Shown: positions 19,330-64,000 of the stretch, one piece after another
Numbering within the stretch: position 1 is the first letter of the stretch
Layout of the letters: every line of letters begins with the position of its first letter
NCBI RefSeq assembly: GCF_001613545.1
Contig: NZ_BDCO01000002.1
Location: 682,001-746,000, forward strand
Length of the DNA stretch: 64,000 bases
Direction of reading: 5' to 3'
Source of the DNA: Terrimicrobium sacchariphilum
GTDB lineage: Bacteria > Verrucomicrobiota > Verrucomicrobiia > Chthoniobacterales > Terrimicrobiaceae
Notes under the pieces: generated by a model
Database searches by the model: none
The model's input: only the letters and a program-made list of their open reading frames with translations
Told to the model about the DNA's origin: nothing
Position numbers and translations under genes: made by a program

Positions 19330-19411
19330 GATTTTCAATGCATTTTTCCCGTAGAAGAGGGCGCTCATCTTGTGTTTGACCTATCCCCGCCGGACACCAG
19401 AACATGACCGC

Positions 19412-20455
19412 ATGGTTTCGCTGAAACGCATTGCGGCTGAGTTGGATGTTTCCTACAGCCTCGTCTCCAAGGTGCTCAATGGCAGGCTCGGCACGACGGG
19501 GGTGAGCGCGGCCACGCGCGATGCGATCCAGAAGAAAGCGAAAGAGCTTAACTACGTACCCAACCGTCTGGCGGTGGCGCTGAAGGCGGGACGCCGGGGA
19601 GTGGTCGGGATTTTTTTCCACCACATGGGAATCCCGGGGAGTGATCTGAGCGATCGCTTGCTCAAGGGCCTAGTCGACGGACTCGAGCAGGGTTCATCCC
19701 GTATGTGGCTCCGGTACTTTACCACCGACTGCGAATTCCTCGATGCCTGTGACTCCCGGCTCAGGAATGAGGTGGACGGGCTGATCGTCGCCGGGGTGTA
19801 TCACGCGGGGCTGACGGAGCGCCTGCGCGAGCTCGAGCGCCTGGGCGTTCCCGTGGTGACGATGTTTGACAACGAGCCTGCCCCCTCTGCGGACAATCCG
19901 GTCACGCGGGTGCAGGTTTCCTATTTCTCCCATGGCTATGTGCCGACCAGGCATCTGCTGGACCTGGGCTGCCGGCGGCTCGCCTGCCTGGATACGGACC
20001 AGAGCCGGACGAAGGGATTTTTGCAGGCTCACAAGGATGCCAAGGTGCGGGTCGACCGGTCCCTTGTCATTCCGTCGAAGAAATTCCTGAAAGAGGACGG
20101 GCGCAAAGCGGCCAAGGCCCTCCTTGCGGCGGGCCTGCCCGTGGATGGCATTGTGTGCCAGTCCGATGCGCAGGCCAATGGTGTGATCTGCGAGTTGATC
20201 CTGAAAGGCGTCAAGGTGCCCGAGCAGGTCAAGGTGACGGGGGTGGATAATTCCCCGCTCGCCGAGGAATGCATCGTGCCGATCACGTCGATGACATCGG
20301 AGGTTCGCAAGGCTGGCTTGAAGTCCGTGGAGCTCCTCTTTCAGCGTATCGAGGGCGTCAAAGTAAAGTCTGTCCTGATCGAGCCGAAGCTGGTGGCGAG
20401 AAACTCCACCGGGGAAACTCCCGCCAGGTCGCTGAATCGGGCTGAGTTGGAATAA
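19412..20455 (+). CDS. LacI-family transcriptional regulator 1
   Basis: About 347 residues. The N-terminal helix-turn-helix and hinge helix (KRIAAELDVSYSLVSKVLNG, then NYVPNRLAVALKAGR) are canonical for LacI. The rest is a periplasmic-binding-protein-like sensor with GIVCQSDAQANGV and VTGVDNSPLAEE near the end. Its first 33 residues are identical to those of the second LacI protein in the window, and both proteins have the same length. The frame extends upstream to 19370, but homology with the paralog begins at the Met encoded at 19412, so that start is used. It probably represses the divergent GH2 gene and other units carrying the 14-bp operator. Confidence 0.9.
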   Translation: MVSLKRIAAELDVSYSLVSKVLNGRLGTTGVSAATRDAIQKKAKELNYVPNRLAVALKAGRRGVVGIFFHHMGIPGSDLSDRLLKGLVDGLEQGSSRMWLRYFTTDCEFLDACDSRLRNEVDGLIVAGVYHAGLTERLRELERLGVPVVTMFDNEPAPSADNPVTRVQVSYFSHGYVPTRHLLDLGCRRLACLDTDQSRTKGFLQAHKDAKVRVDRSLVIPSKKFLKEDGRKAAKALLAAGLPVDGIVCQSDAQANGVICELILKGVKVPEQVKVTGVDNSPLAEECIVPITSMTSEVRKAGLKSVELLFQRIEGVKVKSVLIEPKLVARNSTGETPARSLNRAELE

Positions 20456-30585: not shown

Positions 30586-30627
30586 TTGACCTTTGAGGCC
30601 TTCCGGATGCACATTTGTCCCAACTCC

Positions 30628-31671
30628 ATGGTTTCACTGAAACGCATCGCGGCGGAACTCGATGTTTCCTACAGCCTGGTTTCCAAGGTGCTGAACGGGC
30701 GGCTGGGAACGACGGGAGTAAGTGCCAAGACCCAGGACGCAATCCGGAAAAAGGCGCGCCAGTTGAACTACGTACCCAACCGGCTTGCCGTCGCGTTGAA
30801 GGCGGGGCGCAAGGGCGCGATCGGCGTCTTTTTTCATCACCTCGGCACGCCGGGCAGCGACCTGAGTGATCGCCTGCTCAAGGGGCTGGCGGAGGAACTC
30901 GACAAGATCGCCGTCCGCATGTGGCTGCGCTTCTTCTTTACCGATGAGGAATTTGCCGAGGCCTGCGACTCGCGGCTCAAGAGCGAAGTCGACGGTCTCA
31001 TCGTTACAGGAGTGTATCACCCGGGGCTCTGGAAAAAACTGCGGGAGCTGGAGGAGAGCGGGTTGCCGGTGCTCACGCTGTTCAACGATGTGCCGGAGGG
31101 CTCGTCCGACGAGCGCGTGACGAGCGTGAGGGTCTGCTATGAGACGCATGGGTATCTCCCGACCCGGCATCTGCTGGAGCTCGGGCATCGCAGGCTGGCC
31201 TGCGTGGCTACGTTCGAAAGCCGCACCGCCGGGTTTGAGCGTGCTCATCGGGAGGCGGGCGTGCCGATCGATCGACGGATGATTATCCCGACGAAGGGAT
31301 TTCTCATGGAGGATGGCCGCTTCGCCGTGGAGAGGCTCTGCAAACTCGGCCAGATGCCGGAGGGAATCGTCTGCCAGTCCGATGCCCAGGCCAATGGCGT
31401 GATCAACGAACTCATGATCCGGGGACTGAGGGTGCCTGATGATGTCAAGGTCACCGGCGTCGATAACTCGCCGCTGGCTGAAGACAGCATCGTCCCGATC
31501 ACATCGATGACCTCTGAGATGCGCCGGGCTGGTCACAGGGCCGTAAAGCTCCTCATGCAAAAGATCGAGGGAAAGGCGGTCGAATCCGTCGTCTACCAGC
31601 CAAAGCTGGTGGGCCGCACCTCCACCGGCATGCCCGTACTCCGCGGAGTCGATCGCAGCCTGCTCGAATAA
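30628..31671 (+). CDS. LacI-family transcriptional regulator 2
   Basis: About 347 residues, the same length as LacI regulator 1. The helix-turn-helix and hinge are identical through the first 33 residues and nearly so to residue 65. The sensor domain is clearly homologous (IGVFFHHLGTPGSDLSDRLLKGL, GIVCQSDAQANGVINEL, VTGVDNSPLAEDS) but differs at many positions in the middle, where ligand contacts are expected. Thus the two proteins should read the same operators while responding to different or overlapping inducers. The frame reaches 30586, but the Met at 30628 matches the paralog's start. Confidence 0.9.
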   Translation: MVSLKRIAAELDVSYSLVSKVLNGRLGTTGVSAKTQDAIRKKARQLNYVPNRLAVALKAGRKGAIGVFFHHLGTPGSDLSDRLLKGLAEELDKIAVRMWLRFFFTDEEFAEACDSRLKSEVDGLIVTGVYHPGLWKKLRELEESGLPVLTLFNDVPEGSSDERVTSVRVCYETHGYLPTRHLLELGHRRLACVATFESRTAGFERAHREAGVPIDRRMIIPTKGFLMEDGRFAVERLCKLGQMPEGIVCQSDAQANGVINELMIRGLRVPDDVKVTGVDNSPLAEDSIVPITSMTSEMRRAGHRAVKLLMQKIEGKAVESVVYQPKLVGRTSTGMPVLRGVDRSLLE

Positions 31672-56224: not shown

Positions 56225-56272
56225 TTGGGTTGTTAACTATCCTTCGCCAACCAGGCAGAACCAGTGCGACGT

Positions 56273-56288
56273 CACGCATATTGATGCA
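56273..56288 (-). promoter_or_regulatory. 16-bp conserved element, copy 1 (before GH116)
   Basis: On the minus strand it reads TGCATCAATATGCGTG, 48 bp before the GH116 start. It is identical to copy 3 and differs from copy 2 in one base. The core GCATCAATATGC is an imperfect palindrome. Confidence 0.7.
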
Positions 56289-56362
56289 GTGCGGAACTTT
56301 CTTTCCGGCAGGGAAAACAGAGCTTCCGCGCGGGAGGATGGGCGGCCGGGGCGGGCTGATCT

Positions 56363-56977
56363 TCAGGGCCGCCACGTTGTGACGTTGCCGTTCACGGCAT
56401 CCATCACAAGGGTGACATAATTTGCCGGCGGCTTGGCCAGGTTGTCTCCGTCGCGTACGTCATGCAGCGTGAGAAACCAGGGGGTGCCGGGGAAGGGGGG
56501 GACATTGGCGCTCCCGTCGGGCCGGAACCGGAAAGACCACGCCTCGTACGAGGTGCCGACGCCGGAGACCGGCGGTTTCGTTTCGGAGCCCCAGGCCTTT
56601 TTCAGCGAGGGATCGGCGAGGGTGGAGAGGGTCGTGCCGGAGTCGATGAGGATCTGGGAGGGGAGTTTTTTGAGGCGGCTGACTGCGATGGCCTGGCCGT
56701 CCGTGTTATAAGTGAAAAGCTGAAATGCGCCGAGCCGCTCCTCGGTGCCCGGCGCGGAGGGGTCTTTGAAGCGGATGAGCCGTACCTCGACCTCCTGGTT
56801 CTGCGCGATGGCGGTTTGCCGGGCCAGCGAGAGCATGGAGGTGAGTTCGTTTTCAGCCGAGGAGAGAGCCGATGCTCGCTGGATGGAGCTGATCGCGGGG
56901 ACGGCCAGGGTGGCCAGCAGGCCGATGAGCGCCATGACGACGAGCAACTCGATGAGGCTGAAGGCTCGGCTTCTCAT
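56363..56977 (-). CDS. Verru_Chthon cassette protein D (cassette 2), GspH/FimT-like pseudopilin
   Basis: About 204 residues from the ATG at 56977, which overlaps the stop of protein A as ATGA. The longer upstream frame is inside protein A and is not credible. The prepilin site is SRA-FSLIELLVVMALIGLLATL (Glu5 present, Ala before the cut), followed by SSAENELTSMLSLARQTAIAQNQEVEVRLI, the GspH/FimT pattern. FRFRPDGSANVP matches the copy in cassette 1. It ends the B-C-A-D unit; a gap of about 138 bp with the 16-bp element separates it from GH116. Confidence 0.85.
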   Translation of the reverse strand: MRSRAFSLIELLVVMALIGLLATLAVPAISSIQRASALSSAENELTSMLSLARQTAIAQNQEVEVRLIRFKDPSAPGTEERLGAFQLFTYNTDGQAIAVSRLKKLPSQILIDSGTTLSTLADPSLKKAWGSETKPPVSGVGTSYEAWSFRFRPDGSANVPPFPGTPWFLTLHDVRDGDNLAKPPANYVTLVMDAVNGNVTTWRP

Positions 56978-59900
56978 GGGGTGAACCGTTTCACGTTGGC
57001 CACTCGCCAGCGGTAGAGTCCTTCCACGCTCTGGCTGCTTTGCGTTGCAAAATCCACAATCGCCGGGTCCTCGGGATCGATGTAGCGCTCGATCATCGCG
57101 GACCCCCGGTACTCGCCTGCGACGATGTCCTTGCCCTCGACCCATTGATCGACCGGCGTCGAGGGAATCTTCTTAAGGTTCTGCACGATGAAGTGCACGG
57201 TGAAGACATTCGACTTGGTCGTCACTCGCGGGTAGATCGTTGTGTAAGGCCGCTCGCGCACGTTGTCCCCGGTGAGCATGTGGTTTTCCCAGTAGGTCTT
57301 CATCGTGCCTGATGTCGCGGAGGAGTCCGTCGTATCGCCGGGCACGAGGTCGATCGAGCAGATTTCGCTCGCGGACCGGAAGATGTCACCCGCGGTGAAA
57401 CGCTTGGAGAATCCCTTCAAGGTCTCGTCGGCGTTGATCTTGAAACGCTGGTCGGGATTGGTGGCTGCGTTCCAACTGCTTTTGCTGGTCGTCTTTGCGC
57501 CGCTCTTTCCGGTGATGGCGAGCATGCGCTCGGAGGCGAGCACGGCGCGCATACCGGTTTCCCTCGTGATGTAGGAGAAGGGCATGATCTGGTAGTTCAT
57601 GTTAATCTTGCCCGCGGTGGAAAAGGGTTCGCTGATGGCGTAGGGCTCGACGATTGGCATCCAGAAGAGATCAAGCAGCAGATGATCGGCGGGGCTTTGC
57701 GCTCCGAAATGTTTCCCGGTGGGATCGGGCCGGAAGAGCAGGGTCTGCCACGATGCCCCTTTGGTGGTGCCCGTCGGCAGCGAGCCAAACATGCCCGGCG
57801 AAGGCAGCTGTTTGTTGGGTGAGGTGATGTTCTTGTCGGGGGGGTAGCCGTCCCAGTCGAAATACGGCACACCGCCGCCGGCGGAGGAATACGCCAGCCC
57901 CTCGTCGGCTTTGTTCAGGTACGCGCCATCGGGCGACCGGCCGAAGCCATTGTTCCAATCTCCCGGGGCATCGGAGGGGGAGCCTGTGGTCGAAGCGTAG
58001 ACTCCGTTGATCTCGCCGCGGACGAAGGGATAGTAGCTCGGCTCGTTGTTCCAGACGTTCGGCGGGCTGTCGACGGCCCAGTTGATGTTTGGCACGAGGT
58101 TCCCCCCGCGGGTGGCGTCGGGCATCGGATTGCCGTTGCCGTCGCGCAGTCCATGGGCGCGTCGTGCCTCGCCATCGTAGTCTTTGTGCTTGGAGAACCA
58201 GCTCGCGGGGACATTGGCCATGTAGGAGAGGCGGCGGAAATCCCCGCCCACGTAATCGCCCGAGGACGTTTTGTCGACCAGTTGGACCGACCGCACGACA
58301 TCGCCGTAGTCCGTGCTGGTAACGGTCTTGAGCGGGTCTGTCGGGTTGACATCCCGGTTGTCGATCAGGAGCACGCCGTTGTTTTGCGCCTTGCCGCCCG
58401 CTCCGTCGATGTCGGGAGCCGCCTGTTGATAGCCCAGGAGCGTGCCTTGGGCGTTGTAGTTTCCGCGCACGACGGGCCTGGGGATCGGCAGTTTCGCGAC
58501 GTCGGGAAAGTTGAAGGTGTAGGTCTGGATGGTCTCGCCATCGGCAGAGCGCAAGGTCACATCAAAGGTTCCCCCCTTGAGGTTCCAGCGCGCCTTCACG
58601 GGATCGCCCCTGATCACAGGTGTGGCGGCCGAGACGAGTTCGAAGCGCCTCCGGGCATCGGACTCGCTGATGGCGTGATCCGCCAGCGCTGAGTACGAGT
58701 GGTTGCCGCCGAAGTTTCGCCGGTTGCCCTGTCCCATGGCGCGCTCGTTGGCATTGGCCCATTGCGTCACGGTGGATCCGTTCTTGAAGAAGTTGAACGG
58801 CTCGTTGGGCTGGCCGCTGACCAGCGATGCGGACTTGGCGGGATCGGCATCGGCCACGGGGAAGCAGGTGAACGTATTGGTGGCGGTGACGGTCAGCTGC
58901 AAGTTGGTAAAGCTCACCATGAAGCCCTGCATGGCGTTCATGAAGTTGAAATAAAGCGCCGCACGGAACTTGGTCTCGGTGTCCTTCGCCTGGCCGCTGG
59001 GCGGCGTCGTCGGGATGCCGACGCAGTAAAAGACGAGGAAGGCCTGGTCGATGACGGGGAATCTCCCCGCGCCCTTGGTGTCACTGATCTTGATGGGGAC
59101 GACGAGGCCTGGCGAGCGGTAGGGCGAGGTGGAGGGGCTGTACCATGTGCCGCCGATCTTGTACGAGTCCGAGTAGGTGCCGCTGGTCGGCAGGTTGGGA
59201 TCGTTGAGATTGCATGAGCGGATGTAGTCAAAGATTTCCGTGAGGATCTGGTCCCGCTCTCCCGAGCCGTATTTGCTGGCAAAGTTTCCGCCGAAGCCCG
59301 GGATGTTTCGCGACGTGATATCCTGGAGGTAGGAATAGAGGCGCTGGTTGCGGGGGATGCCCTGGTAGTCGTTGGACGTGCTCTTGGAGTCGTAACGCTG
59401 GAAGTAAAACGGATAGGAGTTTGATGATCCGGAGGCGCTGCCGAGGGTGGCGCACCGGGCGATGAGCCGGTCCTGGGCGGTGCGGTGATCGGAGTCGTCG
59501 GTCTTGTGAATCGGCCAGATGGCCACTCGCGGCAACCCAAAGAGATTGACCTCCGGCGCGCGATTGTTGGCCGTGAGAAAGAAGCGGGCCCGCTCCAGCA
59601 CGTCGTTGGTGATCGAAGGGTCCGATCCGGCGAGATCCGGCGCGTAAAGCATCTCGTCCACGCTGCTGTAGAGGCGCTCGGTTTTCTGCGCCAGCGGAGC
59701 CACCGCGCCCGAGGTCATGGTCGTGATGACGGTGCCTCCCTCGGTGCCGCCGAAGCGGTAGCGCGGGGTGAGCTTGAGGTAACGCTTCAGCCGCGTGCTG
59801 ATCTCGTCGGCTGCACTCGGGGCGATGCGCGTGGTGGCGGCGGACATTCCCGCTGGCTTGTAGTTGGTGTCGTAGGTGATGGGCACGTCGTTGATCGACG

Positions 59901-60837
59901 GGATCCAGGGCTTGAGCACCGTGCTGAGCGCGGTGTTTGAGGGGTGCCCCGGGTAGCGTTGAAACTCGTTCACGGTGGGGGAGAACATCGACAGCACGAA
60001 GTCCGGCGCTCCGGAGTAGTGTGGGAGGTCGTAATACGTCGCCTCCGATGCCGTGTTAATGTTTACCTTGGAGGACTCGTCATCGACCCAGTAGGCGATG
60101 CGGCCCACGATGGGATTGCTCTTGGAGGGCTGGACCGGTCCGGTGAAGGTGATCGTCCCGCTCGTGCTGTCGTCGGGATGAAGGAGCTGGCCGTTGGCCA
60201 GCACATACAGCCACCGCACCGGCATCGGAAGACGCTGGTCGTTTGGCGAACCGCCCGGGCCGACGATGCCATTGATCGTCCCGCTGGTGTAGTTGAACCC
60301 CTCGATGCTGGTGGCGGCCGCGCCTGTCTGGGCGCGAGGGTCCACGATGGGAAACTCCAGCGATTGATTCCCTCCGGATTCGGTGCGGATCACGGGGCTG
60401 TTGAGATCGACATAGACGCCTTTTTGCTTGTTCCAGTTGACCGGCGGCAGTTCATCCCCCGGCTTGAATGAGCTGCCGGGCACGGAATCCGAAGACGCCG
60501 AGTAAAGCCGGTAAAATGTGCCGGGCGAGCCTGTCGACGTGTAGGTGCGGATCATGCCCGGCTGCGACGCCCAGGATACCGCAGGAGAACCCGGGTCGCT
60601 CGGATCTGTCAGCCCCGATGTGGCCTCGCGGATGCGCGAGATGGCGATCTGCGGCACGGAGTCCGCCAACTGCCGGACGTTTACGGAATTGGCCTGGGCC
60701 GAGGACGAAAAGGTCTCGCCGGAGATACTGCTCAGGAATGAAACGGCCAGCGCGGTGACGATGAGCAGAAAGGCCAGCGCAATGATCAATGCCGCGCCCT
60801 TGCTTTGGCGGGGCCTGCGAGGAAATGTATGGGCCAT
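56974..60837 (-). CDS. Verru_Chthon cassette protein A (cassette 2), very large GspK-like protein
   Basis: About 1287 residues from the ATG at 60837, 1 nt after protein C. The N-terminus RQSKG-AALIIALAFLLIVTALAVSF resembles GspK/PilX pilins and has no Glu5. Shared with cassette 1: WASQPGM(I/V)RTYT, PMPVRWLYVLANGQLL, DDESSKVNINTASE, NIPGFGGNFASKYGSG, ADHLLLDLFWMPIVEPYAIS and the C-terminal ERYIDPEDPAIVDF...YRWRV. Between these blocks the two proteins differ greatly, consistent with different binding specificities on one scaffold. Probably the tip component of a pseudopilus. Confidence 0.85.
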   Translation of the reverse strand: MAHTFPRRPRQSKGAALIIALAFLLIVTALAVSFLSSISGETFSSSAQANSVNVRQLADSVPQIAISRIREATSGLTDPSDPGSPAVSWASQPGMIRTYTSTGSPGTFYRLYSASSDSVPGSSFKPGDELPPVNWNKQKGVYVDLNSPVIRTESGGNQSLEFPIVDPRAQTGAAATSIEGFNYTSGTINGIVGPGGSPNDQRLPMPVRWLYVLANGQLLHPDDSTSGTITFTGPVQPSKSNPIVGRIAYWVDDESSKVNINTASEATYYDLPHYSGAPDFVLSMFSPTVNEFQRYPGHPSNTALSTVLKPWIPSINDVPITYDTNYKPAGMSAATTRIAPSAADEISTRLKRYLKLTPRYRFGGTEGGTVITTMTSGAVAPLAQKTERLYSSVDEMLYAPDLAGSDPSITNDVLERARFFLTANNRAPEVNLFGLPRVAIWPIHKTDDSDHRTAQDRLIARCATLGSASGSSNSYPFYFQRYDSKSTSNDYQGIPRNQRLYSYLQDITSRNIPGFGGNFASKYGSGERDQILTEIFDYIRSCNLNDPNLPTSGTYSDSYKIGGTWYSPSTSPYRSPGLVVPIKISDTKGAGRFPVIDQAFLVFYCVGIPTTPPSGQAKDTETKFRAALYFNFMNAMQGFMVSFTNLQLTVTATNTFTCFPVADADPAKSASLVSGQPNEPFNFFKNGSTVTQWANANERAMGQGNRRNFGGNHSYSALADHAISESDARRRFELVSAATPVIRGDPVKARWNLKGGTFDVTLRSADGETIQTYTFNFPDVAKLPIPRPVVRGNYNAQGTLLGYQQAAPDIDGAGGKAQNNGVLLIDNRDVNPTDPLKTVTSTDYGDVVRSVQLVDKTSSGDYVGGDFRRLSYMANVPASWFSKHKDYDGEARRAHGLRDGNGNPMPDATRGGNLVPNINWAVDSPPNVWNNEPSYYPFVRGEINGVYASTTGSPSDAPGDWNNGFGRSPDGAYLNKADEGLAYSSAGGGVPYFDWDGYPPDKNITSPNKQLPSPGMFGSLPTGTTKGASWQTLLFRPDPTGKHFGAQSPADHLLLDLFWMPIVEPYAISEPFSTAGKINMNYQIMPFSYITRETGMRAVLASERMLAITGKSGAKTTSKSSWNAATNPDQRFKINADETLKGFSKRFTAGDIFRSASEICSIDLVPGDTTDSSATSGTMKTYWENHMLTGDNVRERPYTTIYPRVTTKSNVFTVHFIVQNLKKIPSTPVDQWVEGKDIVAGEYRGSAMIERYIDPEDPAIVDFATQSSQSVEGLYRWRVANVKRFTP

Positions 60838-60838
60838 A

Positions 60839-61885
60839 TCAGTTCGACTGTTCGGTGCTCCAGCGTGCGGCTCGCACGACGACATTGGCGGTGAAGACGC
60901 GGAAATTGATGTTTTGTTTCGCGAGGTGATCCTGGAGATCCTGGAGGTCCTGCTCGACCTTGGCGGCGGCTCCGGAGCCGAAGGCGAACTTCCCGGCGAG
61001 CCCGAAGTCGGGAGGCGAGGTGCCTGTGGTCAGGCGGGCCGCGGAGTTTTCGTCGATGGCGATCATCGTCACCTGCACCACGGGGGGCAGCTGATTCTTC
61101 GGATTGATCGAGGCGTCGGTCCTGGCGTCGGTGGAGTCGTAGAGCAGCTCCGGCGCCAGACGGCTCTCCGTTTGGTCATCCTGGGACGACAACTTGGGGA
61201 CAAAGACCAGGGCGATGATGTTGTCGGCCAGGATGTGGACCGGGCGCGTCGACCCGGCCAGGCTGGAGGTGAACCAGTTTCGTCCCGTGTACGACGGCTG
61301 GCCGGAGGTCTCCTTGTAGATGCTCAGGTCGTCCCGGGGTTGGATCAGCTCGTAGAGCCTGCTGCGGAACCGGGGCTGTGAGAAGGGCGGGCGCGCGGCG
61401 GTGTTGTCTCCAAACTCCACGAAGTAGCCGCAGGTATTGAGGAGGTTGTTGAGGCCTCCTCCATCCACGGTCGCATTCGGGTTTACCAACCCCGCCGGGG
61501 ACTGGAAAAATATGCCGTGCGTGGACCATGTTTTTCCCGATGGCGCCGCGCCTGCGATCTTGTCCATCGGCCCCGAGAGGAAGCGTAGTTCCGACTGCCG
61601 GATGTAGCGCTGTGGGTTGGCCGGGTTGTCGTAATCCCAATAGGTGTTGAGCGTAGCTTCCGCGAGGCGGCGCGTGATGGTGTCAAATGCCTCCCGCGCG
61701 GCGCGGAATTGCTCGACCTTGGCCGACGTGCGGAGCCACACCTTGCGGGTCAGGTCGGTGATCGATGCCAGGATCACCACCAGCAGCGAGATCACCGCGA
61801 CGGAGATGAGCACTTCCATCAGGCTGAAGCCTGTGGCTCTCCTCGCGTGATGCCTGCGGCAGCCGCTATCTCGTCCGCGCCACAT
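60839..61885 (-). CDS. Verru_Chthon cassette protein C (cassette 2), GspJ-like minor pseudopilin
   Basis: A 348-residue protein with a prepilin site ATG-FSLMEVLISVAVISLLVV (Gly before the cut, Glu5). AREAFDTITRRLAEATLNTYWDY is the GspJ/PilW-type segment also seen in cassette 1 C as ARAAFSTLNLQISRATLNAY. Shared downstream blocks: LRFLSGP, FVPKLSS, QLPPVVQVTMIAID, NINFRVFTANVVVRAARWS. The start overlaps protein B by 20 nt. Confidence 0.85.
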   Translation of the reverse strand: MWRGRDSGCRRHHARRATGFSLMEVLISVAVISLLVVILASITDLTRKVWLRTSAKVEQFRAAREAFDTITRRLAEATLNTYWDYDNPANPQRYIRQSELRFLSGPMDKIAGAAPSGKTWSTHGIFFQSPAGLVNPNATVDGGGLNNLLNTCGYFVEFGDNTAARPPFSQPRFRSRLYELIQPRDDLSIYKETSGQPSYTGRNWFTSSLAGSTRPVHILADNIIALVFVPKLSSQDDQTESRLAPELLYDSTDARTDASINPKNQLPPVVQVTMIAIDENSAARLTTGTSPPDFGLAGKFAFGSGAAAKVEQDLQDLQDHLAKQNINFRVFTANVVVRAARWSTEQSN

Positions 61886-62354
61886 AGAACGTGCGGCGAA
61901 TGCAGGTCGCGGCTGATTTCTCGGGAGCCATAAACCCCCCGGTGGCGGGGTCCCGGCTCAGGGTGCCGGTGCCGGGTGTCTTCACGATGTCAACCACCAC
62001 GGTGGCAAGGCTCGACGATGCATTGAGCTTTGCGCCCACCGCGACCTGAAATACCGGATTGTCCGCGCTCGTGCACTCGAGGCCCTGCTCGCTAAAGTAG
62101 CGGACGGGCAACTGGGTCGTTCCCGGGTGGGACGAGGTGAGCGTCGAAAAATCCGCCTGCCCCGCGTCGGCAGCTGCTCGCTGATAGATCTGCGACGTCA
62201 CCGAGGTGTCCATCGCATGCTGGAAGCTGGAAAGGCCAACCGGCAGCAAACCCATGATCGGCAGCACTGCGACAGCCGTGACGGCCAGAGCAATCATGAC
62301 CTCAACGAGACTGAACGCGTCGGGCGTTGGAATTCTTCTGGGGGGGCGATTCAT
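61866..62354 (-). CDS. Verru_Chthon cassette protein B (cassette 2), GspI-like minor pseudopilin
   Basis: About 162 residues from the ATG at 62354. The frame is open to an ATG at 62408, but that codon lies inside the 16-bp conserved element; from 62354 the element is 47 bp upstream, matching its spacing at two other genes. The prepilin site is TPDA-FSLVEVMIALAVTAVAVL (Glu5, Ala before the cut), followed by LPIMGLLPVGLSSFQHAMD, closely similar to cassette 1 B (SLMPAGLASLQEA). First gene of the second cassette. Confidence 0.83.
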   Translation of the reverse strand: MNRPPRRIPTPDAFSLVEVMIALAVTAVAVLPIMGLLPVGLSSFQHAMDTSVTSQIYQRAAADAGQADFSTLTSSHPGTTQLPVRYFSEQGLECTSADNPVFQVAVGAKLNASSSLATVVVDIVKTPGTGTLSRDPATGGFMAPEKSAATCIRRTFYVARTR

Positions 62355-62401
62355 TCTGGGGTGAATGTCACGTGCTCTCTTATCATAAACAAGGGGAGAT
62401 G

Positions 62402-62417
62402 CACGCATATTGATGCG
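62402..62417 (-). promoter_or_regulatory. 16-bp conserved element, copy 2 (before cassette 2)
   Basis: The minus strand reads CGCATCAATATGCGTG, 47 bp before the cassette 2 B start. A shorter palindrome with similar half-sites, GCATATATGC (62430-62439), lies 12 bp further upstream and may be an accessory site. Confidence 0.7.
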
Positions 62418-62736
62418 CTCTTTTCCTAGGCATATATGCGGGGCTCGCTGGCAGGCGGCCGACGCGGGAGAGGCTAAGTCAATATTCCCTTGCGTAAGGC
62501 GGCATGATGCTCGCGGGGCGACGGGGGGTTATTAATATATGTGTCCGGGCGAGGAATAACGCAAAGGGAGACGCTCGATGTTTGTTATTAGCTCTTGGGT
62601 GATGTCTAGCGGAATGGCGGTCGCTTTTCTTATGTCCCGGGATCGGCCGGTCTGATCGGGTCACGCCTGCCAGATTCATGCAGGGAGGTCAAAAAATGAC
62701 GTCAATGCCACTGTCGCATTGTCTTGAACAGCTCCC
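62418..62736. other. divergent intergenic region between cassette 2 and the GH74-like gene
   Basis: About 320 bp flanked by copies 2 and 3 of the 16-bp element. It has an AT-rich patch (GGTTATTAATATATGTG near 62525-62541) that could carry a promoter. A well-placed GGGAGG precedes an ATG at 62696, but that frame runs into the GH74-like gene in another phase and has no coding character. Confidence 0.4.
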
Positions 62737-62752
62737 TGCATCAATATGCGTG
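62737..62752 (+). promoter_or_regulatory. 16-bp conserved element, copy 3 (before the GH74-like gene)
   Basis: TGCATCAATATGCGTG on the plus strand, 46 bp before the GH74-like start and identical to copy 1. Orientation relative to the gene is the same as for copies 1 and 2. Confidence 0.7.
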
Positions 62753-62798
62753 CACACCCGCTTGCGATCGACGGCAGGCGTTCGGATGATGTGGCGGT

Positions 62799-64000
62799 AT
62801 GCTTATTTCCCTCAGCAGCTCTATCCTGCATGTGTTTCCCGCGAGGTGCATTCGCCCCGGCCTTGCGGCGGCCTGCCTCTTCGGTCTTGGAGCAGGCCAT
62901 ACCGCTGCGGCGGCTGATCTTTCCGCGGAGTATGAGTGGAAGCCCGTGCGGATCGGTGCGGGAGGATTTGTCACCGGGCTGGTCCTGCATCCGGAAGACC
63001 CCGCCATTCGGTATTGTCGCACGGATGTCGGCAACGCCTACCGGTGGGACGAGCAGGCCCAGGAGTGGTTTCCCATGGTGATCCGGACCGCCTCGGGTGG
63101 GCTGCCGGAGTCGGCCGCCGTCGCGCCGAGTCGCGGGGGCGTCACCGCCCTCGCCACCGATCCCAACGACAAAAAAGTGGTGCTCATGGCCCGACCATTC
63201 AAATTCAGCGGGGACCTGAAACTCGACGCAATCAAGGGAACCGTTTTTCGCAGTGACGACGGTGGGCGTTCCTTCGTCGGGAGCGACCTGAATGTGCCGA
63301 TGAACTCCAACGGCAGCGGGCGCAACGTCGGCGAGCGGCTGGCTGTCGATCCGAACGACGGCAGGATCGTTTTCTTCGGCTCGCAAGGCGCGGGACTCTG
63401 GAAAAGCGTCAACGGCGGCCTGGCCTGGACGCAGGTGACGGGCGGCGGCGCGCCGGAGGCCAGTGCCGACATCCTCGGCGTTCGCTATGACAAGGTCGAT
63501 ACCCAGAAATCGATCATCTATGTCGTTCTCGCGGGCAAGGGGATTCTCCAGTCCCTCGACGGAGGGGTGAACTGGGAGGATATCACTGCGGGCAGGGACG
63601 GTGCCGACAAGATCGCGAATGTCACCGTCGACGCGCTGGGAAATCTCTACGTGCCCGTCGCGAAAAGACCGTCGGAGATGTGGAAGAAGACGCGGGCCGG
63701 GGAGTGGACATCGAGCCCGGTGAGCCTCGGCTCCTCGGGCAATTCCCTTTTGTCCGTGGCCGTGGACCCGGCCAACCCGGAGCGCCTCTTTGCCATCGGC
63801 AGCGGCGGCGCGCAGTCGAGATCCCTCGATGGCGGGAAGACCTGGGAGTTCCTGGGGAATACGTTTGTGTTTGCAAATTCCGTGGGCTGGATGCCGCAGC
63901 ACGTCAATGGCTCGCCGCTCGGCTGGCGCTCCAACGGCGGCATCTATTTCGATGCCCGCGGAAATCTCTGGGCTCCGCAGGGCAACGAGGGCGTGCTCAC
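62799..64000 (+). CDS. GH74-like secreted xyloglucanase/BNR-repeat hydrolase (3' truncated)
   Basis: The frame runs off the window end after about 400 codons. The ATG at 62799 follows an in-frame stop and gives a signal peptide ending near HTAAAADLS. The mature N-terminus FVTGLVLHPEDPAIRYCRTDVGNAYRWD closely matches the opening of GH74 seven-bladed propellers, where the Asp after RT is a catalytic residue. Asp-box (BNR) repeats follow: FRSDDGGRSF, WKSVNGGLAW, LQSLDGGVNW, SRSLDGGKTW. GH74 enzymes cleave xyloglucan; the second propeller is outside the window. Together with GH116 this suggests a beta-glucan with side chains. Confidence 0.8.
   Translation, partial: MLISLSSSILHVFPARCIRPGLAAACLFGLGAGHTAAAADLSAEYEWKPVRIGAGGFVTGLVLHPEDPAIRYCRTDVGNAYRWDEQAQEWFPMVIRTASGGLPESAAVAPSRGGVTALATDPNDKKVVLMARPFKFSGDLKLDAIKGTVFRSDDGGRSFVGSDLNVPMNSNGSGRNVGERLAVDPNDGRIVFFGSQGAGLWKSVNGGLAWTQVTGGGAPEASADILGVRYDKVDTQKSIIYVVLAGKGILQSLDGGVNWEDITAGRDGADKIANVTVDALGNLYVPVAKRPSEMWKKTRAGEWTSSPVSLGSSGNSLLSVAVDPANPERLFAIGSGGAQSRSLDGGKTWEFLGNTFVFANSVGWMPQHVNGSPLGWRSNGGIYFDARGNLWAPQGNEGVL

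Follow-up and report, generated by a model that had tools for sequence, protein, structure and literature searches.

The window, that is, the whole 64,000-nucleotide stretch of DNA analysed here, contains three copies of a 16-bp element, placed by a pattern scan and by their distances to open reading frames (ORFs). Copy 1 (TGCATCAATATGCGTG, 56273..56288, - strand) precedes a GH116-family gene (PF04685/PF12215; 53639..56224, -), the ATG of which lies at offset 64 from the start of the 16-mer. Alignment of the sites revealed a -35-like TGGTTC (56258..56263, -) located 9 nt past the 16-mer, or 11 past its 14-bp core, and a 17-bp spacer together with the pooled column bias at the same offset would place a weak -10-like stretch at 56235..56240 (-). 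Copy 2 (CGCATCAATATGCGTG, 62402..62417, -) is located before a Verru_Chthon cassette and is followed by a -35-like TTGTTT (62387..62392, -; site alignment) and by a weak -10-like GACATT (62364..62369, -; upstream reading and alignment). The genes of this cassette are arranged in tandem in the order B, C, A, D. The pseudopilin-like protein B, encoded by the first gene (61866..62354, -), scored 49.2 bits against TIGR02598, just below the NCBIfam cut-off of 51.4, whereas proteins C (60839..61885, -; TIGR02599), A (56974..60885, -; TIGR02600, E 3e-295) and D (TIGR02596 and gene call; ORF as listed 56363..57145, -, with a true start probably at ~56977) scored above theirs. Copy 3 (TGCATCAATATGCGTG, 62737..62752, +) precedes a GH74-like gene with BNR/sortilin repeats (ORF and domain search; 62799..64000, +) that continues to C2:747123. 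Here, upstream reading and alignment gave a -35-like TTGCGA at 62762..62767 (+) and a -10-like GATGAT at 62785..62790 (+). Beyond the window, domain searches identified a GH32 gene and then a LacI-family gene, P0001, downstream of the GH74-like gene.

All three copies share the same orientation relative to the gene that follows and lie 48, 47 and 46 bp from the chosen ATG, exactly as the original prediction had described them. A search of the whole genome with up to 2 mismatches returned 10 matches, against 0 for a reversed control pattern. Eight of the 10 fall within G000:C2:738273-766712, a stretch of 28.4 kb that begins in the window and extends 21 kb past its right edge; five of these are exact and three carry 1-2 mismatches. 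Outside this cluster, the whole-genome scan found no match at 0-1 mismatch. Two weak matches with 2 mismatches are located at G000:C2:2364176 and C2:3509310. With a weight matrix applied to 816 kb of sequence, the eight cluster copies scored at least 24 bits and everything else remained below 15 bits. Every cluster copy precedes an ORF in the same orientation, at distances of 48, 47, 46, 52, 57, 89, 46 and 44 bp to start codons that are themselves predicted. Hence the constancy of 46-48 bp proposed earlier holds for the copies in the window but loosens in the full set, in which seven copies lie 44-57 bp from the start codon and the remaining one at 89 bp. Judged by copy number, we did not observe many copies unrelated to gene starts, the outcome that was to count against the prediction.

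The cluster encodes, besides the GH116, GH74-like, GH32 and LacI-family proteins and the Verru_Chthon cassette (B, C, A, D), a feruloyl-esterase-like protein, a GH9, a PATR/PEP-CTERM protein, SASA-type esterases, a CE2, a GH20 and a nucleoside hydrolase. P0001 is located at G000:C2:748683-749768 (possibly starting at the internal ATG at 748737), in the same direction as the GH74-like and GH32 genes that precede it behind copy 3. It lies 2.7 kb past the window edge and in the middle of the set of 16-mer sites, in good agreement with the earlier suggestion that a dedicated factor might be encoded just past the right edge. P0001 has an N-terminal LacI-type helix-turn-helix (HTH) domain (PF00356, E 1.4e-17). 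Its C-terminal ligand domain had no Pfam match; nevertheless, it appears to be of the periplasmic-binding-protein-like type characteristic of the LacI/GalR family, because Lac repressor, RbsR, PurR and CcpA are the best structural matches of the predicted fold (pLDDT 83.5). No close orthologue of P0001 was present in 213 genomes of the order (best ~35% identity), none was found in GTDB contigs, and a scan of 57 relatives gave only scattered single or paired 1-mismatch matches to the 16-mer and no second such regulon. Therefore, the P0001 regulon itself has no phylogenetic footprint.

When the eight sites were aligned on the 16-mer, they had nothing in common upstream. We rejected the 16-mer itself as a -10 or -35 box, as no common partner hexamer precedes it. 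Downstream, all eight sites carry T in column 25 and G in column 27 (TTG at six, TGG at two), so that T(T/G)G is found 11 bp past the 14-bp core, or 9 nt past the 16-mer, in every case. Shuffling or rotation gave no common triplet at six or more sites in 10,000 controls. We infer that T(T/G)G marks the start of the -35 box. Assuming a 17-bp spacer, the -10 element would occupy columns 48-53 and transcription would start at about column 60-61, placing the centre of the repeat at about -53.5. The -10 elements of the regulon, partly read by eye, are weak. As seven of the eight start codons lie at columns 60-73, the predicted transcription starts point to transcripts that are leaderless or nearly so, and the constant distance between 16-mer and ATG seems to result from a fixed promoter distance combined with very short leaders. 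The original prediction had offered two possibilities, an activator site or a promoter element, with a dedicated factor to read it. Because T(T/G)G keeps a fixed distance from the sites, a position suited to activation is favoured over one that blocks transcription. A promoter element as such did not hold up: the evidence supports an inverted repeat of the LacI-operator type.

The core of the 16-mer is a 14-bp inverted repeat, CGCAT-CAAT-ATGCG, and thus has the even symmetry (CGCAT-N4-ATGCG) of LacI-family operators. In the PurR operator, ACGCAAACGTTTGCGT, the half-site CGCA lies at the same distance from the centre; PurR represses, and its operator has CG where the 16-mer has CA/AT. The central CG pair that is usual, but not universal, in the family is absent here, the centre being CAAT with A/A at the central step, and a central-CG operator was rejected on this ground. 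This pair occurs in 1173 of 1303 surveyed LacI-family motifs, with 49 that differ, in a survey without Verrucomicrobiota (PMC4052901). The local LacI-family sugar regulons of that RegPrecise survey likewise combine an even inverted repeat, a local cluster and a site 30-140 bp from the start codon, but central CG is typical there and the usual mode is the opposite of the one predicted for P0001 (PMC4052901).

The genome contains 44 LacI HTH matches. Among non-coding sequences around LacI genes, the strongest repeated 14-bp inverted repeat is the core of the 16-mer (6 members, 1 mismatch). Private repeats were also found near the LacI genes C2:807623 (CACATCCGGATGTG), C2:2295676 (GTCAAACTGTTGAC), C2:2790410 (GTTGACGTGTCAGC), C2:1216855 (AGAAAnTACTTTCT) and C3:559737 (CCTACnnGTAGG), and near the pair C2:701421/712637 inside the window (ATCAnACnnnTGAT). 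In the paralogue C2:254483 (recognition helix QSTVSRALR), the gene start bears CGCATCACGATGCG, a repeat conserved in the congener G002, and C3:327778 (GSTVSRALR) has YGCAACGNSATGCR-N11-TTG at three places. The helix RSTVSRALK is shared by C1:51334, associated with CGCAACGAGGTGCA-N11-TTGTCT, and by a LacI protein of G089, a genome from another family of the order, where YGCAACGRGGTGCR-type sites are each followed by N11-TTG. By proximity, the paralogues closest to P0001 in the recognition helix appear to carry the closest repeats.

Some features of these repeats are recorded here as side observations. At C2:254633 and at C10:461262 of G002, one side of the CGCATCACGATGCG repeat abuts the start of the LacI gene, while the other is followed after 11 bp by a TTG, and an ATG lies at offset 60; one such site could possibly repress its own LacI gene and activate the divergent gene. 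The two arms of the repeats differ, and the difference keeps its side relative to the promoter at the eight P0001 sites, at C3:324286/325718/328872 and at L153/L148 of G089; in the sister regulons, GCAAC is distal and GCAT or GCAC proximal. A second regulon lies in the window, where two LacI-family genes with near-identical HTH (19370-20455 and 30586-31671, both +) accompany seven ATCA-N6-TGAT inverted repeats at ~10875, 19316, 21293, 21660, 27665, 31726 and 34953. Several of these lie between -35 and -10 and are of the repressor type.

With a probability of roughly 0.78, we consider the 16-mer to be the operator of P0001 in activator position, serving eight promoters of a plant-polysaccharide cluster. 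Binding of P0001 to the 16-mer is strongly suggested by the sequences, activation moderately so, and a sugar would presumably act as the inducer. According to this model, a P0001 dimer would occupy the inverted repeat, centred about 53.5 bp ahead of the transcription start. It would sit just beyond the -35 box, the TTG-type sequence of which follows after 11 bp, at promoters whose -10 is poor. Bound in one fixed orientation, it would assist sigma70 RNA polymerase at the promoters of the GH116 gene, the Verru_Chthon pseudopilin cassette, GH74-like/GH32/lacI, feruloyl-esterase-like/GH9, the PATR/PEP-CTERM protein with a SASA esterase, the CE2 esterase and a divergent pair. Fixed promoter geometry and near-leaderless transcripts would then account for the constant distance to the ATG. 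Activation would also reinforce itself, since lacI is read in the same direction as the GH74-like and GH32 genes and lies downstream of them.

The activator position is proposed because each site lies wholly upstream of the -35 box at a fixed helical phase, as does that of CcpA at ackA; this arrangement was found at 8/8 sites, given the putative -35, and the fixed orientation of the imperfect repeat was likewise seen at all eight. CcpA activates ackA, pta and ilvB from sites upstream of -35 and represses from sites that overlap the promoter; activation is reported to depend on the helix face (PMC3463425). P0001 thus resembles CcpA acting as an activator in Bacillus subtilis in being a LacI/GalR-family protein with a site upstream of -35. 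Conversely, CcpA acts globally, mostly as a repressor, and requires phosphorylated HPr, whereas P0001 would be a private regulator of one cluster with every site in activator position. For Cra/FruR of enterobacteria, we know of no constant single geometry. Some genes are activated by this LacI-family protein (PMC4052901), as proposed for P0001, but it is a global and dual regulator.

The foremost alternative, which we regard as unlikely, is that P0001 binds the 16-mer as a repressor and is released from DNA when it binds the sugar. Most characterised LacI-family members do repress, and at several LacI loci of this genome whose proteins have a canonical hinge, the repeats fall between -35 and -10 (for example TTGACAatCACATCCGGATGTGatTTATT at C2:807902), which is a repressor position. 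By contrast, none of the eight P0001 sites overlaps the -35-like element: each lies upstream of it across a 9-nt gap, so that the core promoter would stay uncovered, and the promoters themselves look weak. From these few cases, the type of hinge seems to be linked to the position of the repeat.

We observed that the layout found at the P0001 sites, a palindrome followed by N11-TTG, is enriched near other LacI genes of the genome and of the congener, and more weakly in another family. Before genes near other LacI loci, weak inverted repeats had TTG at offset 25 in 27 cases, P0001 sites left out, against a mean of ~12 per offset. With the offset fixed beforehand, G002 gave 33 against 11.9, a partly independent replicate since some orthologous loci are in common. 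The same single-site test was not significant in G089 (9 vs a mean of 5.8). Furthermore, we carried out a test for pairs of repeated sites (two sites in a region that agree at 12/14 positions or more, are loosely palindromic and have unlike spacers), in which offset 25 ranked first in each of the three genomes: 18 vs 3.7 in the genome itself, six of the 18 being P0001 pairs, 12 vs 4.1 in G002 and 10 vs 3.5 in G089. The strict-palindrome subset (6/6 pairs) showed no peak at offset 25. These observations suggest that activator repeats are imperfect, and that among perfect ones there are repressor-type sites and probably hairpins. Pooled non-P0001 sites had a -10 bias at columns 49-54, being A/T-biased and carrying T at columns 52-54. 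Identity across eight orthologous pairs was 96% for the repeat together with TTGnnn, 81% for the -10 stretch and 65-67% for the spacers; the repeat and TTG were partly selected for here, unlike the final three letters of the -35 hexamer.

Another regulator encoded elsewhere might read the 16-mer, with P0001 as a bystander. The link between the two comes from sequence, and both a near-identical recognition helix and a CGCAT/ATGCG repeat are found for at least one paralogue (C2:254483). That paralogue is ~0.5 Mb away with its own adjoining site of different centre, and the LacI gene that the cluster contains is P0001, which makes this explanation improbable. Less probable still, the 16-mer would be the -35 region of a promoter read by an alternative sigma factor (ECF or sigma54). 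Such a promoter would account for the fixed orientation and spacing, and the constantly spaced TTG is reminiscent of the TTGC half in sigma54 promoters. Against it, the core is an inverted repeat; the sigma54 signature of GG at -24 and GC at -12 is not present, as GG is absent at -24 and TGAC, TGCA or TGAG occurs where TGGC is expected; T(T/G)G and an A/T-biased stretch 17 bp on fit sigma70; the copies are limited to one LacI cluster; and the same offset occurs with unrelated inverted repeats at other LacI genes. If the copies were a mobile or duplicated repeat with no part in regulation, this would explain their near-identical sequences, but hardly the unrelated flanks, a same-orientation gene behind every copy and the lack of 0-1 mismatch copies elsewhere, and we give this reading almost no weight.

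Beyond P0001 as an activator, we lean towards the view that the order harbours a large clade of LacI proteins with a non-canonical hinge that are dedicated local activators, with private oriented repeats always 11 bp upstream of -35 and very short leaders or none, and that Verru_Chthon cassettes belong to these polysaccharide-induced regulons. The genome has 13 cassette-A genes, eight of which lie within 10 kb of a LacI gene; with 16% of the genome within that distance, this gives a binomial p of 2.7e-4. A repeat followed by N11-TTG directly precedes the first gene in five of nine cassettes looked at, two of the five having been read by eye from the upstream sequence, and a sixth has a repressor-type repeat. 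Cassettes directly preceded by a LacI-type operator include those at C1:51556, C3:328872 and C2:2301317. A search of one literature library found no paper on Verru_Chthon cassettes. Our results suggest that they are produced together with polysaccharide-degrading enzymes.

LacI-family regulators are thought of mainly as repressors, and a lineage in which dozens per genome seem to share one activator geometry would revise this picture. The layout would provide a simple rule, an inverted repeat, 11 bp and TTG, for the regulons of poorly studied polysaccharide degraders. Furthermore, if Verru_Chthon cassettes are tied to the sugar-induced breakdown of polysaccharides, their role becomes testable.
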